64,000 nt of DNA from Orenia metallireducens (GTDB taxonomy: Bacteria > Bacillota > Halanaerobiia > Halobacteroidales > Halobacteroidaceae): positions 186,001 to 250,000 of the forward strand of contig NZ_LWDV01000008.1 in NCBI RefSeq assembly GCF_001693735.1, read 5' to 3'. The position numbers and the translations under genes are program-made. The notes below the pieces were generated by a model. It ran no database searches and was not told the DNA's origin. It was given only the letters and a program-made list of their open reading frames with translations. Positions 29,515 through 39,075 of the stretch are shown in pieces. How positions within the stretch are numbered: the stretch's first letter is position 1; each line of letters starts with the position of its first letter.

Positions 29515-29562
29515 TATAGTATAAATAATCTTGACAATATTGTCAAGATTATTTATACTATA
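29515..29562. promoter_or_regulatory. 48-bp perfect palindrome carrying two mirror-image sigma-A promoters
   Basis: The two 24-bp halves are exact complements. On the plus strand TTGACA (29531-29536), 17 nt, TATACT (29554-29559) is a near-consensus promoter aimed at the efflux operon. By symmetry the minus strand has TTGACA (29546-29541), 17 nt, TATACT (29523-29518), aimed back across the activase genes. There is no T-run, so a terminator role is less likely, although the transcript could form a long hairpin. Confidence 0.75.
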
Positions 29563-29567
29563 AATTA

Positions 29568-29591
29568 ACAGTACTGACCAGTCAGTACTGT
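29568..29591. promoter_or_regulatory. Candidate TetR-family operator upstream of the efflux operon
   Basis: ACAGTACTGA and TCAGTACTGT are exact inverted arms around CCAG, giving a GACCAGTC core like that of several TetR-family operators (for example LmrA/YxaF and FadR types in Bacillus). It sits at the expected start site of the plus-strand promoter. A TetR gene (38494) ends the cluster. GTGGTTTTTATTTTT follows, so a terminator is the alternative reading. Confidence 0.62.
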
Positions 29592-29741
29592 GGTTTTTAT
29601 TTTTAATTTGATACCAACTTTTAATACTCTATAACTTTTATAAGTAATATAAGGGGTGATAAAAGGATGAATTAAATTAATTCACATAAGACTAGTGAAA
29701 TTATAATTGGTTGATTTAGAAAAGATGGAGGTGTTCTTTTG

Positions 29742-32024
29742 ATGAAGAGAAATGTATTATTTTGTTTGATCTTTCTTATATTAGCTACTTCATTTATGTC
29801 TAATATAAGTTATGCTAAGGAGAATTACCAAGTGAAATTACCTAAAGTCAATATAGGTATAATTTATGAAGGTGATGATAATTTCAATTTAAAGTTGAAA
29901 AATAGTGTAGAAGAAGAGATATTACAGATATTATCTGAAGAATATCAAGTTGAATTTAGTGAATTTAAAGCCGATAACCTGGCAGTTCAGAATATAGTAA
30001 TAGATAAATTACTAAGTAATCAGGAGATAGATATTATTATTCCAGCTGGAATTTTAAGCTCTTATACTGTTATTAATAGGGATAATTTAACGAAGCCAGT
30101 TCTAGCTCCTTTTCTAATTGATAGTCAGATTCTTTCAATTAAAGAGAATAAGAGTGGAATAAAAAATCTAAACTTTATAACTTCAAGTTCCATTGTAGAA
30201 AGGGATATTAAAGTCTTTAAAGAGTTGATTGATTTTAATAAAGTGACTTTTATAATTTCAAGGAATTTTACTCAAGGAGTTATAAATCTACCTAAATTAT
30301 TGAAAGTAGATGGAGAAAAGAATAATGTAGAAGTAGACTATATATACGCTGATAACTCTAAGGAAGATATTATTAGGGAGTTAGATAAAGTAGAGGTAGC
30401 TTATCTGTCACCATTAGTAACAGCCAGTAAAAGGTCTATTCTATTAGATGAACTTAATAAAAGAAAGATTCCTACCTTTACATTAGCAGATATGATAAAT
30501 GATGAAGGAATTTTAGCAGGATATTCCCATAACAAAGCGATTAATGTTAGAGCTAGAGCTACGGCTCTTAATCTAGAATTGATTTTAGCTGGGAAAGAAG
30601 CAGGTAACCTACCTGTTTATATCGATAAAAGTGATGAAGAATTGGTCATAAATATGAAAGTAGCAAAGGAAATAGGGGTTTTACCTAATTGGAATTTATT
30701 AAAGAGTGCTAAATTAATTAATCAGGATGATTTAGGTAGAGAACGGTTAACTTTAAAAGAGTCATTAAATATTGCAATTAATAATAATTTAGATTTAGAA
30801 GCAAAAATCAAAGATTTAGATATAGCAGAAGATAACTTAAAGCAAGCTCAAAATAAGAAGAGACCCAACCTTGATTTAAATACTACTTATACTCAAGTAG
30901 ATGAGACTAGAGCAGCAAAGGGAATGGCATCAGAGCAGAAATTAACTGGTGGAATAAAGCTTCAACAAGTCTTATTCAGTGAAGACGCAAATGCCAATAT
31001 AGAGATTAAAGAGAAATTGTATAAACAACAAAAGTTACAATTAAAACAAGAGAAGCTAGATTTGGTTTTAGAAACTATTAAATCTTATATTAATACATTA
31101 AAGGCAAGAGCAGATATTAGATTACAAGAAGAGAATGTCAAGTTGACTAAGGATAATCTAAATATAGCAAGAACCAAGCATGAGATTGGTGCTACAGGAC
31201 CTGCTGATATATATAGATGGGAGAGCCAACAATCAGTAGAGTTAAGTAGATTGTCAGAGACAGAGAGTCAACTAAAGATGGTGAAAGATAATCTGAAAAG
31301 AATTTTAAACCTTCCTTTAACAGCAGATATTAGATTAGAAGAGGTAAGCACTGCTGATATATCTCAAAAATTGGTGGATAAATTTGATGTGAAAAACCCT
31401 TGGGAACTAGAAGATATTAGCAGTAGGTTGATTAAAGAGAGTATTAAAAATTCTCCAGAGATAGCAGGCTTAGACTATCTAATTGAAGTTAAAGAACGAG
31501 AATATTTAATGAAGAAGAGAAAGTTCTATCTACCACAAGTAGGTTTATCTGCCCAATACGATACTTATTTAGAAGAATGGGGTATAGATGGTCCAGCAGG
31601 TGTAGATGCACATGGTGAAGATGAATGGAGTATAGGAATTCAAGCTTCTTTTCCACTATATGATGGTGGGGATAAGCAGGTTGAGCTTGCAAAGGTTGAA
31701 AAAGAGATTGAGCAGTTAAAGAAGAAAAAAGAGTCTTTATTAAAGAAGGTAGAGCAGAATCTTAGAAATAAAGTAATTGCAGCTAATACGGAATACAGAA
31801 AGAATATGTATTCTCAAGAAGCAGTAAATACAGCATATAAGAGTTTAGAGTTGGTTAGAGATGCTTACTCTAAAGGGCTTGTCTCTATTTCAGAACTGTT
31901 AGATGCTCAATCAGCAGTAATCACTGCTAAAAGACAGGAGTTTCTTACAAATTATAATTACTTAATTGCAGTAGCAGAGGTGCAAAGAGCATTAGGGAAC
32001 TTTGATATTATAAATATTAAATAG
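29742..32024 (+). CDS. Fusion of ABC-type substrate-binding-like domain and TolC-type outer-membrane channel
   Basis: A 760-residue exported protein. The signal peptide (VLFCLIFLILATSFMSNISYA) ends near residue 24. Residues about 30-315 look like a type-I periplasmic-binding fold of the ABC_sub_bind kind: VNIGIIYEGDDNFNLKLKNS at the start, then IDIIIPAGILSSYTVI and EVAYLSPLVTASKRSILLDE. The repeated helical TolC/OEP domain follows (about 335-760: ERLTLKESLNIAINNNLDLE, then KLTGGIKLQQVLFS, KHEIGATGPADIYRWESQ, and AYSKGLVSISELLDAQSAVI). I chose ATG 29742, 8 nt after GGAGGTG. First gene of an RND efflux operon. Confidence 0.85.
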   Translation: MKRNVLFCLIFLILATSFMSNISYAKENYQVKLPKVNIGIIYEGDDNFNLKLKNSVEEEILQILSEEYQVEFSEFKADNLAVQNIVIDKLLSNQEIDIIIPAGILSSYTVINRDNLTKPVLAPFLIDSQILSIKENKSGIKNLNFITSSSIVERDIKVFKELIDFNKVTFIISRNFTQGVINLPKLLKVDGEKNNVEVDYIYADNSKEDIIRELDKVEVAYLSPLVTASKRSILLDELNKRKIPTFTLADMINDEGILAGYSHNKAINVRARATALNLELILAGKEAGNLPVYIDKSDEELVINMKVAKEIGVLPNWNLLKSAKLINQDDLGRERLTLKESLNIAINNNLDLEAKIKDLDIAEDNLKQAQNKKRPNLDLNTTYTQVDETRAAKGMASEQKLTGGIKLQQVLFSEDANANIEIKEKLYKQQKLQLKQEKLDLVLETIKSYINTLKARADIRLQEENVKLTKDNLNIARTKHEIGATGPADIYRWESQQSVELSRLSETESQLKMVKDNLKRILNLPLTADIRLEEVSTADISQKLVDKFDVKNPWELEDISSRLIKESIKNSPEIAGLDYLIEVKEREYLMKKRKFYLPQVGLSAQYDTYLEEWGIDGPAGVDAHGEDEWSIGIQASFPLYDGGDKQVELAKVEKEIEQLKKKKESLLKKVEQNLRNKVIAANTEYRKNMYSQEAVNTAYKSLELVRDAYSKGLVSISELLDAQSAVITAKRQEFLTNYNYLIAVAEVQRALGNFDIINIK

Positions 32025-32042
32025 TTTTAAAGGAGGAAGAAG

Positions 32043-33269
32043 ATGAAGAGATTAAGAGGTTTATTCATATTATTAACATTAGCAACTCTATCTTTAATAA
32101 TATCAGGATGCGGTAGCTCATCAGCAGAGCAAGAAGTTGTTGAAGATACTATCAGACCTGTAGAATATCAGCAAGTAGAGCTCAGAAGAGTTGACTCTAC
32201 TTACTCTTATTCGGGAACATTAGAAACTAATGTGAGTACAAATGTTAGTTTTAGAGTTCCAGGAAAGATAAAGGATATATCCGTAGAAGTAGGTAATAAG
32301 GTTAGTAAAGGTCAACTATTAGCTCAATTAGATGATAGTGATTATAAATTACAAGTAAAATCTGTAGAAGCTGGCTTAATGCAAGTCAAAGGTGGAGTAA
32401 GTAGTGCTTTAGCTAAAGTATCCCAAATAGAATCTGCTATAGTTAGTGTAGAAGCCCAACTTACTGAAGCAACTAATAACTTTGATAGAGTTAGAAGATT
32501 ATATGAGAATAATAATGTAGCTAAAGCTGATTATGATAAGGCTAAGGCAGCTAAGGAGTCAGTTGAAGCAAAATTAAAGCAGGTTATAGCACAATTGGCT
32601 GAAGCCAAAGAAGGTGTAGAGGTTGCTAAAGCAAGGGTAGTTTCATATCAAAGCCAGTTAGAATTGGCTAAATTAAAGTTAGAGTATACTAAATTAAAGG
32701 CACCAATCTCTGGAACTATAGTTAGTAAACATTATGAAGCAAATGAGAATATCAATGCAGGTATGCCTGTCTTTACCCTTGATGGAGATAAGGGATTTGA
32801 AGTAAAGGTATTTATTGATGAAGATTTAATCTCAAAGGTAAAAGAAGGTCAGCAGGTATCTGTGGATATTGCAGCTATTAATAAAGCTAATCTTACTGGA
32901 GTAGTAGATAAGATTGGAAGACAGGTTAGAGGGTATAAAGGAAACTATCCAGTAACTATAAGAATAACTGAAGGTTTAGAAAGTTTAAAGGCGGGGATGA
33001 CTGCAAAGGTTCATTTTAACTTCTTAGAAGATAAGAAGAGGTTAATCTTACCAGTGTCGGCAGTAGCAGCTGATGAAGGAGGAAACTTTGTATATACAGT
33101 AAGTAGATTAGCTGATGGGCGTGCTAGAGTAAATAAAGTTAGGGTAAAAGTAGGAACTCTTAACTCTAAAGGAATAGAAGTATTAAAAGGTTTAAATACA
33201 GGAGAACTTGTGGTAACTAAAGGTGTAACCCAAATAGTAGATAATCAAGAGGTACGGTTATTAAAATAG
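32043..33269 (+). CDS. RND efflux periplasmic adaptor lipoprotein (MFP)
   Basis: A 408-residue membrane-fusion protein joining the RND pump to the TolC-type channel. A lipobox (LTLATLSLIISGCGSS, Cys near 23) indicates lipid anchoring. The lipoyl halves (SFRVPGKIKDISVEVGNKVS, about 70-89, and KLKAPISGTIVSKHYEANEN, about 218-237) flank a long alpha-hairpin (about 110-210, ending LAEAKEGVEVAKARVVSYQS). A beta-barrel and membrane-proximal domain follow. AAAGGAGGAAG precedes the ATG; 18 nt after the channel gene, 16 nt before the pump. Confidence 0.93.
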   Translation: MKRLRGLFILLTLATLSLIISGCGSSSAEQEVVEDTIRPVEYQQVELRRVDSTYSYSGTLETNVSTNVSFRVPGKIKDISVEVGNKVSKGQLLAQLDDSDYKLQVKSVEAGLMQVKGGVSSALAKVSQIESAIVSVEAQLTEATNNFDRVRRLYENNNVAKADYDKAKAAKESVEAKLKQVIAQLAEAKEGVEVAKARVVSYQSQLELAKLKLEYTKLKAPISGTIVSKHYEANENINAGMPVFTLDGDKGFEVKVFIDEDLISKVKEGQQVSVDIAAINKANLTGVVDKIGRQVRGYKGNYPVTIRITEGLESLKAGMTAKVHFNFLEDKKRLILPVSAVAADEGGNFVYTVSRLADGRARVNKVRVKVGTLNSKGIEVLKGLNTGELVVTKGVTQIVDNQEVRLLK

Positions 33270-33285
33270 TGGGGAGGGCTAATAT

Positions 33286-36200
33286 ATGGGATTTACTGAA
33301 TTAGCAATTAAGAAGAAATATGTTACATTTACTCTAATTGCTTTATTAATTATAGGTGGAGTCAGAGCTTATTTTAACTTACCTAAATCTGAGAATCCAG
33401 GTTTTATTATCAAAACTGCAACAATAATAACTTACATGCCAGGAGCTAGTCCTGACAAGATTGAGAATCTGATTTCTGATAAGATTGAAGAGGCCGTCAA
33501 AGAGATCCCAGAATTAGATTATGTAGATAGTACAAATAAGACAGGTTTTTCATTGGTAAAGGTCAATATAGAGTCAAAATATAAAGATCTTAGACCGATT
33601 TGGGACAGTATGAGAAGGAAGGTCAATGCTATTAAAAGTCAATTGCCTTCAAATAGTATAGGGCCTATTATCAATGATGAATATGGTGATGTATTTGGAA
33701 CTATAATTGGAGTTACCGGAGAAGATTATAGTTATGCTGAACTAGAAGATATGGTTAAAGATATGCGTGATGAGCTATTAACTATAGATGAGGTTGCCAA
33801 GGTTGATATAGTAGGAAAGCAAGAGAAGAGAATCTTTATAGAATATGATAATTCAAAATTAGCTGAACTAGGAATCTCTCCATACCAATTACAACAAATT
33901 TTAACAAGCAGGAATATCATCCTATCAGGTGGAAATATAGAGTTAGGATCAGAAAGAATACCTCTTGAACCAACAGGAGATTATAAAGATTTAAATGATA
34001 TTAGGAAAACTTCAATCACACTCCCTGATGGTACTGGAATATATTTAGATGATATAGCAGATGTTAGAGAAGGTTATATAGACCCTGCTAATGCTAAAAT
34101 GAGAGTAGATGGTAAACAGGCTTTAGGATTAGCTATTTCTATGAAAGATGGAGGACAGATTACTAAATTAGGAGCAAAGGTAAAGGATAAGGTAGAATAC
34201 TTTAAGAGTCAATATCCTATTGGAGTAAATTTTGATTTTATTTCACAACAATCTGACTTAGTTGAGAAGAAAGTAAGTAGCTTTACTGCCAACTTAATCC
34301 AGAGTACTTTAACAGTTATAGCTGTTTTACTAGTATTTTTGGGTTTGAAGGAAGGTTTACTGGTATCTACCTTAGTTCCTGTAGTAATCGCTATTACCTT
34401 CTTGTTGATGTCTGTTTTTGGGATAGGAATAGATACTGTTTCTTTAGCAGCTTTGATTATATCCTTAGGAATGTTGGTTGATAATTCTGTTGTTATGGCA
34501 GAGTCAATCATATCTAAGTTAGAAGAGGGAATGGGTAAATTAGATGCGGCTATCTCTTCAGCTAAAGAGCTTAAGGTACCTTTATTAGTAGCTTCTTTAG
34601 TAACTTGTGCGGCTTTCTCTCCAATAGGCTTTGCTAAATCTGATGTAGGAGAGTTTGCTGGAGGTATTTTTAAGGTTGTTGCATTAGCTTTGATGACATC
34701 CTGGGTCTTATCCTTAACGATGGTACCTCTATTTGCTGTCTTATTCTTAAAGATTGATAAGAAGGAAGAGGCGTATAATGGTAAGGTCTATCGAGTTCAT
34801 AATAGAATATTGTTAACTCTAATGAAGCATAAAATAGTATTTGTAATTTTAGTGCTGTTAATAATCTTCTCAGGAGTAAAAGGGATGGGATTTGTTCCCA
34901 AAATATTCATGCCTAAAGATAAGAAAACAGTGATGACCTTTGAAGTCCAATTACCTAAAGGGACCTCGATTGAAAGAACAGAAGATGTTGCCAAAGATAT
35001 AGATGAGTATATTGAAAATAAATTAAAAGTAAAGCCTGAACAAGAAGAGGTTAATTTCTTTAAACAATTATTGGCTGGTGGAAGTATAGAAAAGTATAAA
35101 GATGAAGGGATATTAAATTGGGGAACCTTTATTGGAGAAGGAGCTCCTAGGTTTACTTTAGCTTATAGTGCTGAATTAAATAGCCCTGAATATATCTACT
35201 TCTTAATTAATACCACTTCTGTTGAGGTTATTGAAGAATTAATTCTTAAACTAGAAGGTTATACTATCAATCAATTTCCAGATGCTGAGGTTAAAGCTGC
35301 TAGATTGGAGATTATGCCAGTTGGTAAACCGATTCAGATTAGGGTATCAGGTAAGGAAATGGATAAGCTTTATGATATAGTTCACTCAGTCAAAGATAAG
35401 TTAAGAACTATTAATGGAGTAGAGGATATCAGTGATGATTGGGGTCTAAGAACTAAGAAGTTAAGAATTAAGATAGATCAGGATAGATTAGAGAAGGCAG
35501 GTTTGAGTAATAGAGATGTAGCCATCTCATTACTAAGTGTCTTAGATGGTGTGCAATTAACAGAGTATAGAAAAGATGATGATATCATACCAGTGGTCTT
35601 AAGGGATAAAAATAGTAAAAATGTAGATATATCTACATTAGAAACAACTAAAGTTTACTCTCTTAGAACAGGTAGGTCAGTTCCTTTAAAGCAGATAGCT
35701 GAGATCAAGGCTTTATGGGAGCCATCTATAATATATAGGAGGGATGGTATTAGAACTATTACCGTTAAAGCTGATACTGTTAATGGTATTACTGCTACAG
35801 AGGTAAATAATCAATTAAAACCATGGCTTGATAAAGAGCAGGCAAATTGGGGTGCAGGATATAGTTATGCTTTTGGTGGAGAGTATGAGAGTTCAACAGA
35901 AGCCAATGAATCTATTGAAGCCCAATTGCCTATCACTGCATTGGTTATATTATTGTTACTTGTAATTCAGTTCAACTCCTATAAGAAGCCTTTGACTATT
36001 ATCTTAATAGTTCCTCTTACAATAGTAGGAGTAGCAATTGGCTTATTGCTTACCGGAAAGGCCTTTGGCTTTATGGAGATATTGGGGCTAATATCTTTGG
36101 TTGGAATAATAGTCAACAACTCGATTGTGTTAATTGATAGAATTGGTATAGAGCTAGATGAATTTAATAGGACTCCACAGGATGCAATTTTAGAGGCTGC

Positions 36201-36447
36201 TAAAAGAAGATTGCGACCAATCTTTTTGACCAGTGCAACAACGATCTGTGGTCTATTACCCCTTTGGTTTAGTGGTGATGCTTTATTTGGGGGGATGGCA
36301 GTATCCTTAATCTTTGGGTTGTCCTTTGGATTATTAATAACTCTTATCGCAGTTCCTGTAGTTTATTCGATAGTCTTCAATATCAATTATAAAGAGTACA
36401 ACTATAATAATATTGATATTGATAAAAATATGCCTGTTGATAGTTAA
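33286..36447 (+). CDS. RND family efflux transporter permease
   Basis: A 1053-residue AcrB-superfamily proton-driven pump (HAE-like). One N-terminal helix (FTLIALLIIGGVRAYFNL) and two large periplasmic loops (about 30-330 and 555-860) are present. The TM block of about 335-480 holds SLGMLVDNSVVMAESIISKL with the helix-4 acidic residue used in proton relay. A second block of about 870-1030 holds ITALVILLLLVIQFNSYKKP and GIIVNNSIVLIDRIGIEL. Length is normal. Substrates cannot be told. GGGGAGGG precedes the ATG; a terminator follows. Confidence 0.94.
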   Translation: MGFTELAIKKKYVTFTLIALLIIGGVRAYFNLPKSENPGFIIKTATIITYMPGASPDKIENLISDKIEEAVKEIPELDYVDSTNKTGFSLVKVNIESKYKDLRPIWDSMRRKVNAIKSQLPSNSIGPIINDEYGDVFGTIIGVTGEDYSYAELEDMVKDMRDELLTIDEVAKVDIVGKQEKRIFIEYDNSKLAELGISPYQLQQILTSRNIILSGGNIELGSERIPLEPTGDYKDLNDIRKTSITLPDGTGIYLDDIADVREGYIDPANAKMRVDGKQALGLAISMKDGGQITKLGAKVKDKVEYFKSQYPIGVNFDFISQQSDLVEKKVSSFTANLIQSTLTVIAVLLVFLGLKEGLLVSTLVPVVIAITFLLMSVFGIGIDTVSLAALIISLGMLVDNSVVMAESIISKLEEGMGKLDAAISSAKELKVPLLVASLVTCAAFSPIGFAKSDVGEFAGGIFKVVALALMTSWVLSLTMVPLFAVLFLKIDKKEEAYNGKVYRVHNRILLTLMKHKIVFVILVLLIIFSGVKGMGFVPKIFMPKDKKTVMTFEVQLPKGTSIERTEDVAKDIDEYIENKLKVKPEQEEVNFFKQLLAGGSIEKYKDEGILNWGTFIGEGAPRFTLAYSAELNSPEYIYFLINTTSVEVIEELILKLEGYTINQFPDAEVKAARLEIMPVGKPIQIRVSGKEMDKLYDIVHSVKDKLRTINGVEDISDDWGLRTKKLRIKIDQDRLEKAGLSNRDVAISLLSVLDGVQLTEYRKDDDIIPVVLRDKNSKNVDISTLETTKVYSLRTGRSVPLKQIAEIKALWEPSIIYRRDGIRTITVKADTVNGITATEVNNQLKPWLDKEQANWGAGYSYAFGGEYESSTEANESIEAQLPITALVILLLLVIQFNSYKKPLTIILIVPLTIVGVAIGLLLTGKAFGFMEILGLISLVGIIVNNSIVLIDRIGIELDEFNRTPQDAILEAAKRRLRPIFLTSATTICGLLPLWFSGDALFGGMAVSLIFGLSFGLLITLIAVPVVYSIVFNINYKEYNYNNIDIDKNMPVDS

Positions 36448-36486: not shown

Positions 36487-36511
36487 ATAACTTGGGGGGG
36501 TGAATGCTACT

Positions 36512-38353
36512 GTGTTAAGAGAAAAACATTTAATCTTAGTGTTTTTATTGCTTATACTCTTTAACTCAAATAGTGGTTATGCAGCTTTTAAGCAAGATAA
36601 AGGTTTAACTAAAGTGATTAAAGATGATGAGATATATTTAATAGAGGATTATCAGAGGTTTGAATCACTTTCAAAGCAAACTGTTGCAGTAGCACTGACA
36701 GGTGGAGGGGCTAAGGCATTCTTTAATATAGGGGTGATTAAAGCTTTAGAAGAAGAGGATATTCCAATTGATTTGATTGTAGGAACAAGTATGGGGTCAA
36801 TTGTGGGGACTATGTATGGGAGTGGAATATCTATTGAGCAGATTGAGGAGATCATTATTAATGTCCCCTTTGCCAAATTATTAGATATTAACTTTATGAA
36901 TGATGATTATATTTTAGGAACTAGTAAGGTGAATAAATTTCTTGAGGATATAGCACCTTATAAGAGGTTAGAAGATTTTCCTATACCTACAGCCTTATTA
37001 ACTTTAGAATTAGATAGTGGTAATAAATACCTGATCACTACTAATAGAATCTCTAAAGTAATACAAGCCTCTTATGCTATTCCTTATTTCTTCCCACTTT
37101 ATCAGATGGAGGGGAAGTATTTTGCAGACCCTGGCATTTTAGAGAATTCTCCTGCTAAAGCAGCTAAGGCATTAGGAGCAGACTTTGTAATTGCTACTAC
37201 TGTTAAGTCTGAACTAAGCCATGGTAGCTATGAAAATCCAGATAAGATAGTTAACAGATATGTAGATATAGTATCAGAAAATAATAATAGAAGAATAATT
37301 GAAAATTATTCAGATATAATAATTGAAGCTAGAGTTGGAGAATATTCTTTTTTTGACTTTAGTAGTGCAGCTGAGTTAATTGAGATTGGGTATCAAGCTA
37401 CTAAGAAGAAGATGAGTAAGATAAAAGAAGGCTTAAATTCCAAAAAGATTCCTTTAAAGAGGCATCCAGCTAGAAAGAGATTAAATGTAGCACAAGAATT
37501 TAATGATATAAAGTATGATAGGATGTTAGTTCCTTCTTTTCACTTTAACTCAATTATCCATTTTGGACAAGATTATTCTCTTTTTAAGCAAGATTTATTA
37601 AGAAGTTATATAAATATCCCCCAATATGGTTTTGAATTTGATAAAGATAGTGTTGATTTTAAATTTTTAGCAACTAATAATGCTTCTCAAGATTTAGAAG
37701 CAGAGTTTAGGTGGAAAAAGTTGACTAAAAATACTGATATGATAGCCAAGACTAGAATTGAATCTGAGAAAAGAGATGATGGTGAGCTAGGGATTAGATA
37801 CTATAAAGATAATTATTTTTGGGGAACTGGATTAGGGGTTATAGATAATAATAATTATGTCTTTGCAGATGCTAGATATAAGCTAGAACTCAATAGATGT
37901 AATTTAAATGGTGAAGTAGATGTTTTCTTTGATGAGGCAGGGGAAGAACCTAAAATCTTAATCTCTAAAAAGACGTCCTTTAAATTAAGTGATAAGTGGA
38001 ATTTAAGACCTAAAGTAGTCTTTAATAATAGTAATTTAATAGAGTCTCCTATTATTTATCGAGGAGACGAACCAGATAAATTTGCTAAATTTCAACTCTC
38101 TTTAGATTATGCCTATACCTATGAATTTGTAAAAGCGATTAAATTAACGAAGATGCTATATATTAAAGATATTGGAGCATATTTATTTACTGATTATTTA
38201 AACGATGAAGTATCATCTATGGCCTATGGGATAGGTCTTAATGGTGATTTTTATCTGTTAGGACTTAAACCTGTTAGGTTAGATGGTTATTTATCCTATG
38301 ATCAAAATGCGAATGATCCTATTATTAAGATTAATTTAAATTATAATTTTTAA
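36512..38353 (+). CDS. Patatin-like phospholipase with a C-terminal beta-strand-rich (outer-membrane-like) domain
   Basis: A ~613-residue exported protein. The signal peptide is about 1-25 (LILVFLLLILFNSNSGYA). The patatin domain (about 45-330) has the oxyanion loop TGGGAKAFFNIGVIKAL, the nucleophile elbow VGTSMGSIVGT (Ser near 96), and the catalytic Asp in FADPGILENSPA, where DPG replaces the usual DG[GA]. The last ~270 residues alternate polar and hydrophobic and end INLNYNF, as outer-membrane barrels do. This resembles type Vd (PlpD/FplA) autotransporters. I prefer GTG 36512; GTG 36500 lies within the GGGGGGGTGA ribosome-binding site. Confidence 0.82.
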   Translation: MLREKHLILVFLLLILFNSNSGYAAFKQDKGLTKVIKDDEIYLIEDYQRFESLSKQTVAVALTGGGAKAFFNIGVIKALEEEDIPIDLIVGTSMGSIVGTMYGSGISIEQIEEIIINVPFAKLLDINFMNDDYILGTSKVNKFLEDIAPYKRLEDFPIPTALLTLELDSGNKYLITTNRISKVIQASYAIPYFFPLYQMEGKYFADPGILENSPAKAAKALGADFVIATTVKSELSHGSYENPDKIVNRYVDIVSENNNRRIIENYSDIIIEARVGEYSFFDFSSAAELIEIGYQATKKKMSKIKEGLNSKKIPLKRHPARKRLNVAQEFNDIKYDRMLVPSFHFNSIIHFGQDYSLFKQDLLRSYINIPQYGFEFDKDSVDFKFLATNNASQDLEAEFRWKKLTKNTDMIAKTRIESEKRDDGELGIRYYKDNYFWGTGLGVIDNNNYVFADARYKLELNRCNLNGEVDVFFDEAGEEPKILISKKTSFKLSDKWNLRPKVVFNNSNLIESPIIYRGDEPDKFAKFQLSLDYAYTYEFVKAIKLTKMLYIKDIGAYLFTDYLNDEVSSMAYGIGLNGDFYLLGLKPVRLDGYLSYDQNANDPIIKINLNYNF

Positions 38354-38493: not shown

Positions 38494-39075
38494 ATGAATC
38501 CTAAAAAAGAGAAGATATTTGCAGCGGCTATACAGAAGTTTGCTAAAAAGGGGACATCTGCTACAACTATGCAAGAGATTGCAGAAGAAGCTGGGATAGG
38601 GAAGGGAACTTTATACCGTTATTTTAAGAATAAAGAGGATTTGATCTCTTCTTTAATTAAATTTGGTTTAAATGATGTATTAGAGAAAGTAAAAAAAGAG
38701 ATAAATAAATTAGATGATCCAATTAAGAAGATAGAACAGATAATAATTGTCCAATTAAATTTTTATAAAAATCATGGGGAATTCCATAAATTTCTTACCA
38801 GAGAAGTTTGGGGGCATAAACTCAAATTTAAGGATGAGATTAAAGAGATAATGGATAAATATACAGAAATAATTGAAGATATAATTATAGAAGGTATCGA
38901 GCAGAAGAAGCTTAAAGAGATGAATCCACTTAATGTTACTATCTCTTTGTTTGGTATGATTTATATAACTTCTGCTCATAGGATTATGTTTGGAAAAGAT
39001 TTTTCAGCTGATGAGGTTGAAGAGATTAAAGGTGATATTATGGAGATCTATTTTAATGGGATTATTAAAGAGTAA
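38494..39075 (+). CDS. TetR/AcrR-family transcriptional regulator
   Basis: A 193-residue repressor. The N-terminal DNA-binding domain runs from about 5 to 52, with the helix-turn-helix ATTMQEIAEEAGIGKGTLYR followed by YFKNKEDL. The C-terminal ligand domain has no recognisable ligand motif. TGAGGAGC precedes the ATG. It lies at the end of the efflux/patatin cluster, and the palindrome at 29568 is a sensible target, so it probably controls the pump. A terminator follows. Confidence 0.9.
   Translation: MNPKKEKIFAAAIQKFAKKGTSATTMQEIAEEAGIGKGTLYRYFKNKEDLISSLIKFGLNDVLEKVKKEINKLDDPIKKIEQIIIVQLNFYKNHGEFHKFLTREVWGHKLKFKDEIKEIMDKYTEIIEDIIIEGIEQKKLKEMNPLNVTISLFGMIYITSAHRIMFGKDFSADEVEEIKGDIMEIYFNGIIKE

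Follow-up and report, generated by a model that had tools for sequence, protein, structure and literature searches.

The window analysed here is a stretch of 64,000 nucleotides from the genome of Orenia metallireducens (contig NZ_LWDV01000008.1, positions 186,001 to 250,000), and all features of the window named below are read on the plus strand. At 29742-32024 a single unbroken frame encodes a protein of 760 residues plus stop (ATG at 29742, alternative TTG start at 29739), in which a binding-protein fold and a full TolC-type channel are joined directly. The predicted Sec signal peptide (29742-29816; residues 1-25), recognised by eye, ends in SYA and possesses no lipobox, and a lipobox-like motif was found in just 2 of the 43 members of the fusion family. 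Then a type I periplasmic-binding-protein domain of the PF04392 fold (29844-30719; residues about 35-326), a linker of about 7 residues (30720-30740; residues 327-333), and a complete TolC/OEP channel domain (30741-32021; residues 334-760) follow one another, both domains being delimited by profile and model. The linker was read from the secondary structure of the full-length AlphaFold2 model, where the last binding-protein strand occupies residues 324-326 and the first OEP strand residues 334-336; the channel beta-hairpins lie at residues 376-412 and 599-636 and the long helical hairpins at 414-522 and 644-751 of the same model.

The fusion gene is directly followed by the gene of an RND periplasmic adaptor, or membrane fusion protein (32043-33269; HlyD_3 E 1.6e-20, TIGR01730 223.8 bits against a cut-off of 94.9), and by that of the partner pump, an RND permease (33286-36447; ACR_tran E 1.7e-157) which belongs to the fusion-linked RND clade described below. 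The consecutive duct, adaptor, and permease genes at 29742-36447 make up a tripartite RND gene set, as an earlier note on this DNA, made from the sequence alone, had supposed when it paired the channel with an RND pump and its adaptor. Neither a permease nor an ATPase of an ABC importer is found beside the fusion, the neighbours being the efflux adaptor and the RND pump. Further downstream are located a 617-aa patatin-like phospholipase (36500-38353), whose catalytic domain is followed by a long C-terminal region, and a TetR-family regulator (38494-39075), a possible controller of the operon, for which the nearest NCBIfam model is FadR of Bacillus type, scored below its cut-off. The patatin-like gene beside the pump is retained within Orenia metallireducens and not across the rest of the fusion family; a patatin-like gene also lies near a Sulfuricurvum fusion (L010:1784-2539). 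Beyond the adaptor, the pump, and a TetR gene in some lineages the neighbours vary among the loci, and no conserved neighbour was found that would serve as a clue to the substrate.

Upstream, 150 bases 5' of the fusion start, a perfect 11-bp inverted repeat of TetR-operator-like appearance, ACAGTACTGAC-CA-GTCAGTACTGT, occupies 29568-29591. Chance alone would make such a repeat rare in the window (0.31 expected as shuffle mean), and the two matches obtained are one site read on both strands. In a congeneric genome (L006) the repeat has the form ACAGAACTGAC-TA-GTCAGTTCTGT, where the change in one arm is mirrored in the other arm, and it may be linked to the TetR protein encoded at 38494-39075. 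The interval that separates the fusion gene from the activase gene upstream also contains a perfect spacerless palindrome of 48 bases with 24-nt arms (29515-29562), which is just partly retained in the congeneric genome and may be either a terminator or an operator. The same Orenia genome harbours two other RND operons, each composed of a TetR gene, an OEP of 425-436 residues, an adaptor, and a pump; since these ordinary OEPs provide an internal control, the extra N-terminal domain (N-domain) can be considered a feature of one pump type. Elsewhere in this genome two ORFs of 941 and 862 aa contain PF04392 matches below the cut-off (G000:C8:267953-268504 and G000:C8:665030-665548) and are possibly sensors.

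The composition of the protein was established by profiles and by structural models. In Pfam the ABC_sub_bind family (PF04392) matches residues 87-325 with E 1.5e-12 and 47.8 bits against a curated cut-off of 25.9, and the OEP family is matched twice along the same chain (E 1.5e-44), both stretches together spanning the channel. The NCBIfam model TIGR01844 (type_I_sec_TolC) gave 144.5 bits, below its cut-off of 225.15, and the fusion is thus not assigned to that subfamily. Two AlphaFold2 models, of the N-domain alone and of the full chain as a monomer, were built on alignments of relatives and reached a mean pLDDT of 93.6 and of 86.9 (pTM 0.73), respectively. The N-domain model was aligned over 283-285 residues with the solved PF04392 proteins 3lkv (VC_1101; Z 26.8), 3lft (TrpX, SP1069; Z 25.7), and 6hni (CD0873; Z 24.9), while the best full-length structural match beyond the PF04392 family, with Z 17.7, was well below this trio. 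In the full-length model the channel half corresponds to TolC 7ng8 (TM by target 0.82, Foldseek E about 1e-18) and the N-terminal half to the three solved PF04392 proteins (TM 0.80 for 3lft), and no solved single chain spanning both halves is among the structural matches listed. The earlier note had proposed an ABC_sub_bind domain and a full OEP channel on one chain, and both the Pfam profiles and the two models agree with it; the finding that would have spoken against it, N-terminal 300 residues of some other fold, did not appear at this pLDDT and these Z scores. The domain itself was recognised correctly in that note, while its limits of about 30-315 were set slightly short at the end, which reaches about residue 326.

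The fusion recurs far beyond this locus, as about 50 further full-length examples from at least eight phyla were collected by a genome scan and profile surveys. Within the order, two more genomes from the genus and a member of a second family also have it, with N-domain identities of 77, 65, and 46%, the last value belonging to the second family; an Orenia metallireducens record (L027) that looks the same as the congeneric genome G012 contains the fusion with 78% identity. The scan covered 84,980 species genomes and used patterns drawn solely from the channel part of the alignment; with a single sequence as query it gave no matches, while the alignment-derived scan resulted in 50 relatives, 44 of which (L027-L070) match the query in N-domain residues too. 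These 44 originate from KSB1, Acidobacteriota, Gammaproteobacteria, Bacteroidota, Desulfobacterota, Campylobacterota, Gemmatimonadota, and Calditrichota, and include Neolewinella, Aquimarina, and Roseivirga isolates among the Bacteroidota. An extra fusion copy is carried by plasmid pSULKU01 of Sulfuricurvum kujiense. Mis-binning may affect some of the single MAGs: three of the relatives (L045, L046, and L056) have near-identical starts under three phylum or class labels within one sample series. The number of phyla rests on more than these three.

Surveys with the N-domain profile, in which part of the first-look candidates was scored so that the counts are lower bounds and the centre genome is excluded, found the fusion in at least 13 of 295 genomes of the phylum of Neolewinella, at least 6 of 197 of the phylum of Desulfobacteraceae, and at least 2 of 199 Campylobacterota, and in none of 397 Pseudomonadota among the candidates scored; a search of Orenia's own phylum with the full-length profile found it in at least 1 of 397 others. 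All N-domain profile matches of about 160 bits or more fall in ORFs of at least 777 residues, and every strong-match locus that was opened, including four unusually long ORFs, proved to be a channel fusion, while free PF04392 proteins reach at most 107 bits. In one genome (G1294:C4) a second fusion copy (L107:4797-6146) contains stop codons in the N-domain, its channel, adaptor, and pump being intact. Thus the recurrence in other lineages suggested by the earlier note is real, while its "few lineages" was too modest, and a one-off event in Orenia is ruled out by the fusions in other genomes and phyla. An origin by frameshift, mis-assembly, or chance similarity, for which no evidence was found, can be dismissed with near certainty: dozens of independent genomes contain the fusion in one frame, among them the finished sequence of a Sulfuricurvum kujiense plasmid and a complete Sulfidibacter corallicola chromosome, and an assembly or sequencing artefact is excluded because orthologous same-frame fusions exist in three other genomes of the order.

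The N-domain was compared with its free relatives in an alignment of 39 fused domains, 13 free PF04392 proteins, and the three solved sequences. When a tree was built from the 39 fused domains and the 16 free ones, the latter grouped in one branch with support of 1.0, and the Pfam profile itself recognised 22 of the 39 fusion family members at E <=0.01. For the PF04392 proteins that bind aromatic amino acids two side-chain-selecting positions have been named (PMC6816091). The fused domains lack the D-N pair that, according to the alignment, follows a lobe-2 strand in all three solved proteins and probably contacts the ligand there; they have also largely lost two further features, the T-P in cleft loop 1 and the D in cleft loop 3. 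The fused domains possess instead an acid straight after strand 1 (E43 in Orenia; 29868-29870), which is D or E in 43 of 43 fusions and in 0 of 16 free proteins, and we take this position to sit at the cleft, as in type I binding proteins generally. Another candidate, R272 (30555-30557), is R in 42 of 43 fusions and K in one, and was dropped as a fusion-specific residue, R or K being found also in 6 of the 16 free proteins.

A rough conservation test was applied to the four residues after each core strand, on the cleft side, and the four before it, on the outer side. In the fusions the cleft-side loops had 1.69 bits versus 2.18 for the outer ones (p for the reverse 0.99; stable in subsamples), while in nine free proteins of amino-acid type the cleft side was the more conserved (3.23 versus 2.88 bits, p 0.026). 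Since the cleft loops vary among the fusions, the cleft offers no one common ligand site, and as far as such comparisons reach, either the ligand would differ by lineage or the conserved surface would be the outer face. Within close lineages the cleft and outer loops were mostly about equal in conservation, and this would also fit lineage-specific ligands. A typical amino-acid binder, a candidate role of the N-domain, is unsupported, the D-N motif being absent and the cleft conservation reversed.

These data bear directly on the sensor or capture role raised by the earlier note. In the form considered here, the N-domain would be a working ligand module for capturing or sensing a compound in the periplasm, probably the pump cargo, and closure of its lobes would open the duct or pass the ligand on, the ligand being a different one in each lineage. 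We regard this reading as a serious possibility that falls short of an even chance. The complete PF04392 fold with Z of about 25-27 to aromatic-amino-acid binders, the two lobes retained in nearly all fusions of eight phyla, and the family-specific invariant acid at the cleft mouth argue for it, as do PF04392 proteins elsewhere that are joined to, or lie next to, other transporters and a sensor kinase (L105, L103, and L111), since a coupling of the domain to transport or sensing recurs there. It is opposed by the loss of the D-N motif and by the cleft loops being the less conserved side, with no clear conservation of the cleft within lineages; the proposed role is therefore supported in part, by the two-lobed fold being kept.

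In the first of these loci (L105:3359-5371, minus strand) a PF04392 domain is fused to a Mem_trans (PF03547) transporter and adjoins a Cache/SpoIIE sensor protein. Two free PF04392 proteins, counted among the nearest unfused relatives of the fused domain (L103:9763-13287 and L112:3043-6600), adjoin a protein of 800 aa, which at L103 includes an MFS domain in its C-terminal half, and at L111 a PF04392 protein adjoins a histidine kinase.

In about 40 of the loci examined, the fusion, adaptor, and pump genes are consecutive on the same strand, and wherever the flanking sequence suffices, the order is almost always fusion, adaptor, RND. In the RND tree, from which L119 and L130 were disregarded as wrong-frame ORFs, 42 of the 44 linked pumps together with the linked copies L123 and L131 formed one clade with support of 0.999; the fusions of L028 (KSB1) and L051 (Gemmatimonadota) are accompanied by an RND of a different clade, and the fusion-linked RND pumps are thus not wholly monophyletic. 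The nearest outsider to the linked clade is a Sulfidibacter locus (L142) that consists of TetR, adaptor, and pump genes and has no adjacent duct gene. The Campylobacterota fusions L010, L040, L108, and L109 are found with an HlyD-type adaptor, an RbbA-type ABC ATPase/permease, and a YhhJ-type permease, and one Campylobacterales MAG (L067) contains an RND-type partner. Because RND clades and an ABC exporter alternate as partners, it can be considered that the binding-protein domain follows the duct and not one engine. A different joining was observed in the Acidobacteria MAG DOLJORAL78_46_51 (G407), where an ORF of 1438 aa (L149:1016-5332, minus strand), preceded by TetR and adaptor genes, combines an RND permease (ACR_tran, residues 8-995) with an OEP channel in two stretches to residue 1431.

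In the Poseidonibacter/Arcobacter group (L072, L074, L075, and L076) pumps of the same RND clade are accompanied by an OEP with an N-terminal extension of about 150 aa that has no Pfam match. It may be a reduced binding-protein domain, but its interpretation as a single leftover lobe was a by-eye likeness and is unsupported, the profile comparison giving a probability of 0.8% (P 0.068) and the structural search no PDB match. That these relatives run the same pump clade with a short N-terminal extension only counts against a ligand-binding module.

The N-domain and the channel evolved together, as the Mantel correlation between their distances is 0.89 in 43 proteins, compared with 0.70 for channel and RND pump and 0.55 for N-domain and RND pump, and in 0 of 2,000 permutations were the observed correlations reached. 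The mean identity is 27% in the N-domain versus 32% in the channel, and the N-domain evolves almost as slowly. It may be asked whether the N-domain is just an inert relic of the fusion event, at best structural and without influence on efflux, as its low mean identity, the loss of the ancestral amino-acid-binding motif, and the single decayed copy in G1294:C4, whose N-domain is interrupted by stops, might indicate. Such a relic is improbable, since a whole fold, invariant residues, and channel-congruent evolution over eight phyla show continued selection.

TolC-type ducts are usually regarded as passive exits that the adaptor opens, and in the lipidated relatives OprM and CusC the lipid-anchored N-termini lie at the equatorial region below the outer membrane. 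In a tripartite efflux pump the fusion would serve as the exit duct through the outer membrane, every TolC protomer bearing a complete two-lobed domain at its N-terminus; by TolC topology the trimer is expected to hold its three N-domains on the periplasmic side, around the equatorial region and close below the outer membrane. There the N-domain may pack on or between the protomers and help to position, stabilise, or gate the channel during docking of the adaptor and pump; a ligand may still shift the lobes, and given the unconserved cleft, any such ligand would have to vary from lineage to lineage. It is tentatively preferred, at somewhat under an even chance, that the N-domain acts mainly on the duct itself, through docking, stabilising, or gating. 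This action on the duct is rated slightly above ligand sensing on two grounds, the attachment of the domain to the duct across changing engines and the variability of the cleft; the outer-side loops, more conserved than the cleft-side ones, are counted in its favour, and the YbjP partner of E. coli TolC provides a precedent. A purely structural role leaves unexplained why the clamshell is kept in nearly all members and why the E/D43 acid does not change, which counts against it. It seems rather unlikely that the N-domain is a ligand-operated gate of the outer membrane, closing on a lineage-specific periplasmic compound and so opening or assembling the TolC channel, in which case the duct itself, and not the pump or a regulator alone, would decide the timing of export.

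The fusion shares with the TolC/OMF family (TC 1.B.17; Pfam OEP) the complete OEP fold and the operon with adaptor and RND permease, and differs from it by about 300 additional N-terminal residues of binding-protein fold. The OMFs measure 472+/-30 residues, and fusions of outer-membrane proteins are described as rare, with no such fusion among the examples (PMC4827864). Over the whole domain length the N-domain has the two-lobed type I fold in common with the PF04392 proteins; it differs from them in the missing link to an ABC importer, the missing D-N motif, the invariant acid after strand 1, and its separate branch. In E. coli the separate lipoprotein YbjP wraps the equatorial domain of TolC in a 3:3 arrangement (PMC13095208, PMC13082787). 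YbjP serves as a working analogy only: it too adds a globular domain to the TolC collar on the periplasmic side, in three copies to each trimer; it differs as a separate lipoprotein of DUF3828 fold, whereas the Orenia domain is covalently attached, has a binding-protein fold, and may contact the channel. In diderm Firmicutes the OmpM protein includes an SLH domain fused to a porin (PMC5007114). Like the fusion, OmpM is an outer-membrane protein with an additional N-terminal periplasmic domain; the domain, the barrel, and the role, which is peptidoglycan anchoring, are all different.

No description of a binding-protein/TolC fusion was found in the literature searched, in agreement with the earlier note, whose author knew of no characterised example; this result is provisional, the coverage being partial, with preprints, most subscription papers, and InterPro architectures outside its scope. 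In the portion of a Chemical Reviews article of 2021 that was available (PMC8277102), fusion terms gave one unrelated use only, and in PMC8809574 and PMC13082787 the fusion architecture was unmentioned under the terms searched. Provisionally, then, a conserved pump family over many phyla appears to be undescribed, although its components themselves are ordinary.

In summary, a conserved family of ducts keeps a built-in second domain while the inner-membrane engine is exchanged, and the fusion is known from cultured Orenia, Neolewinella, Aquimarina, Roseivirga, Sulfidibacter, and Sulfuricurvum as well as from many uncultured genomes. Under either reading the annotation of the family is poor, the Sulfuricurvum copy being recorded solely as "ABC transporter substrate binding protein". 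If the N-domain senses or captures a ligand, substrate gating at the outer membrane would become directly testable; if it is a collar acting on the duct itself, the duct would carry within its own chain an equivalent of YbjP, the TolC partner discovered recently.
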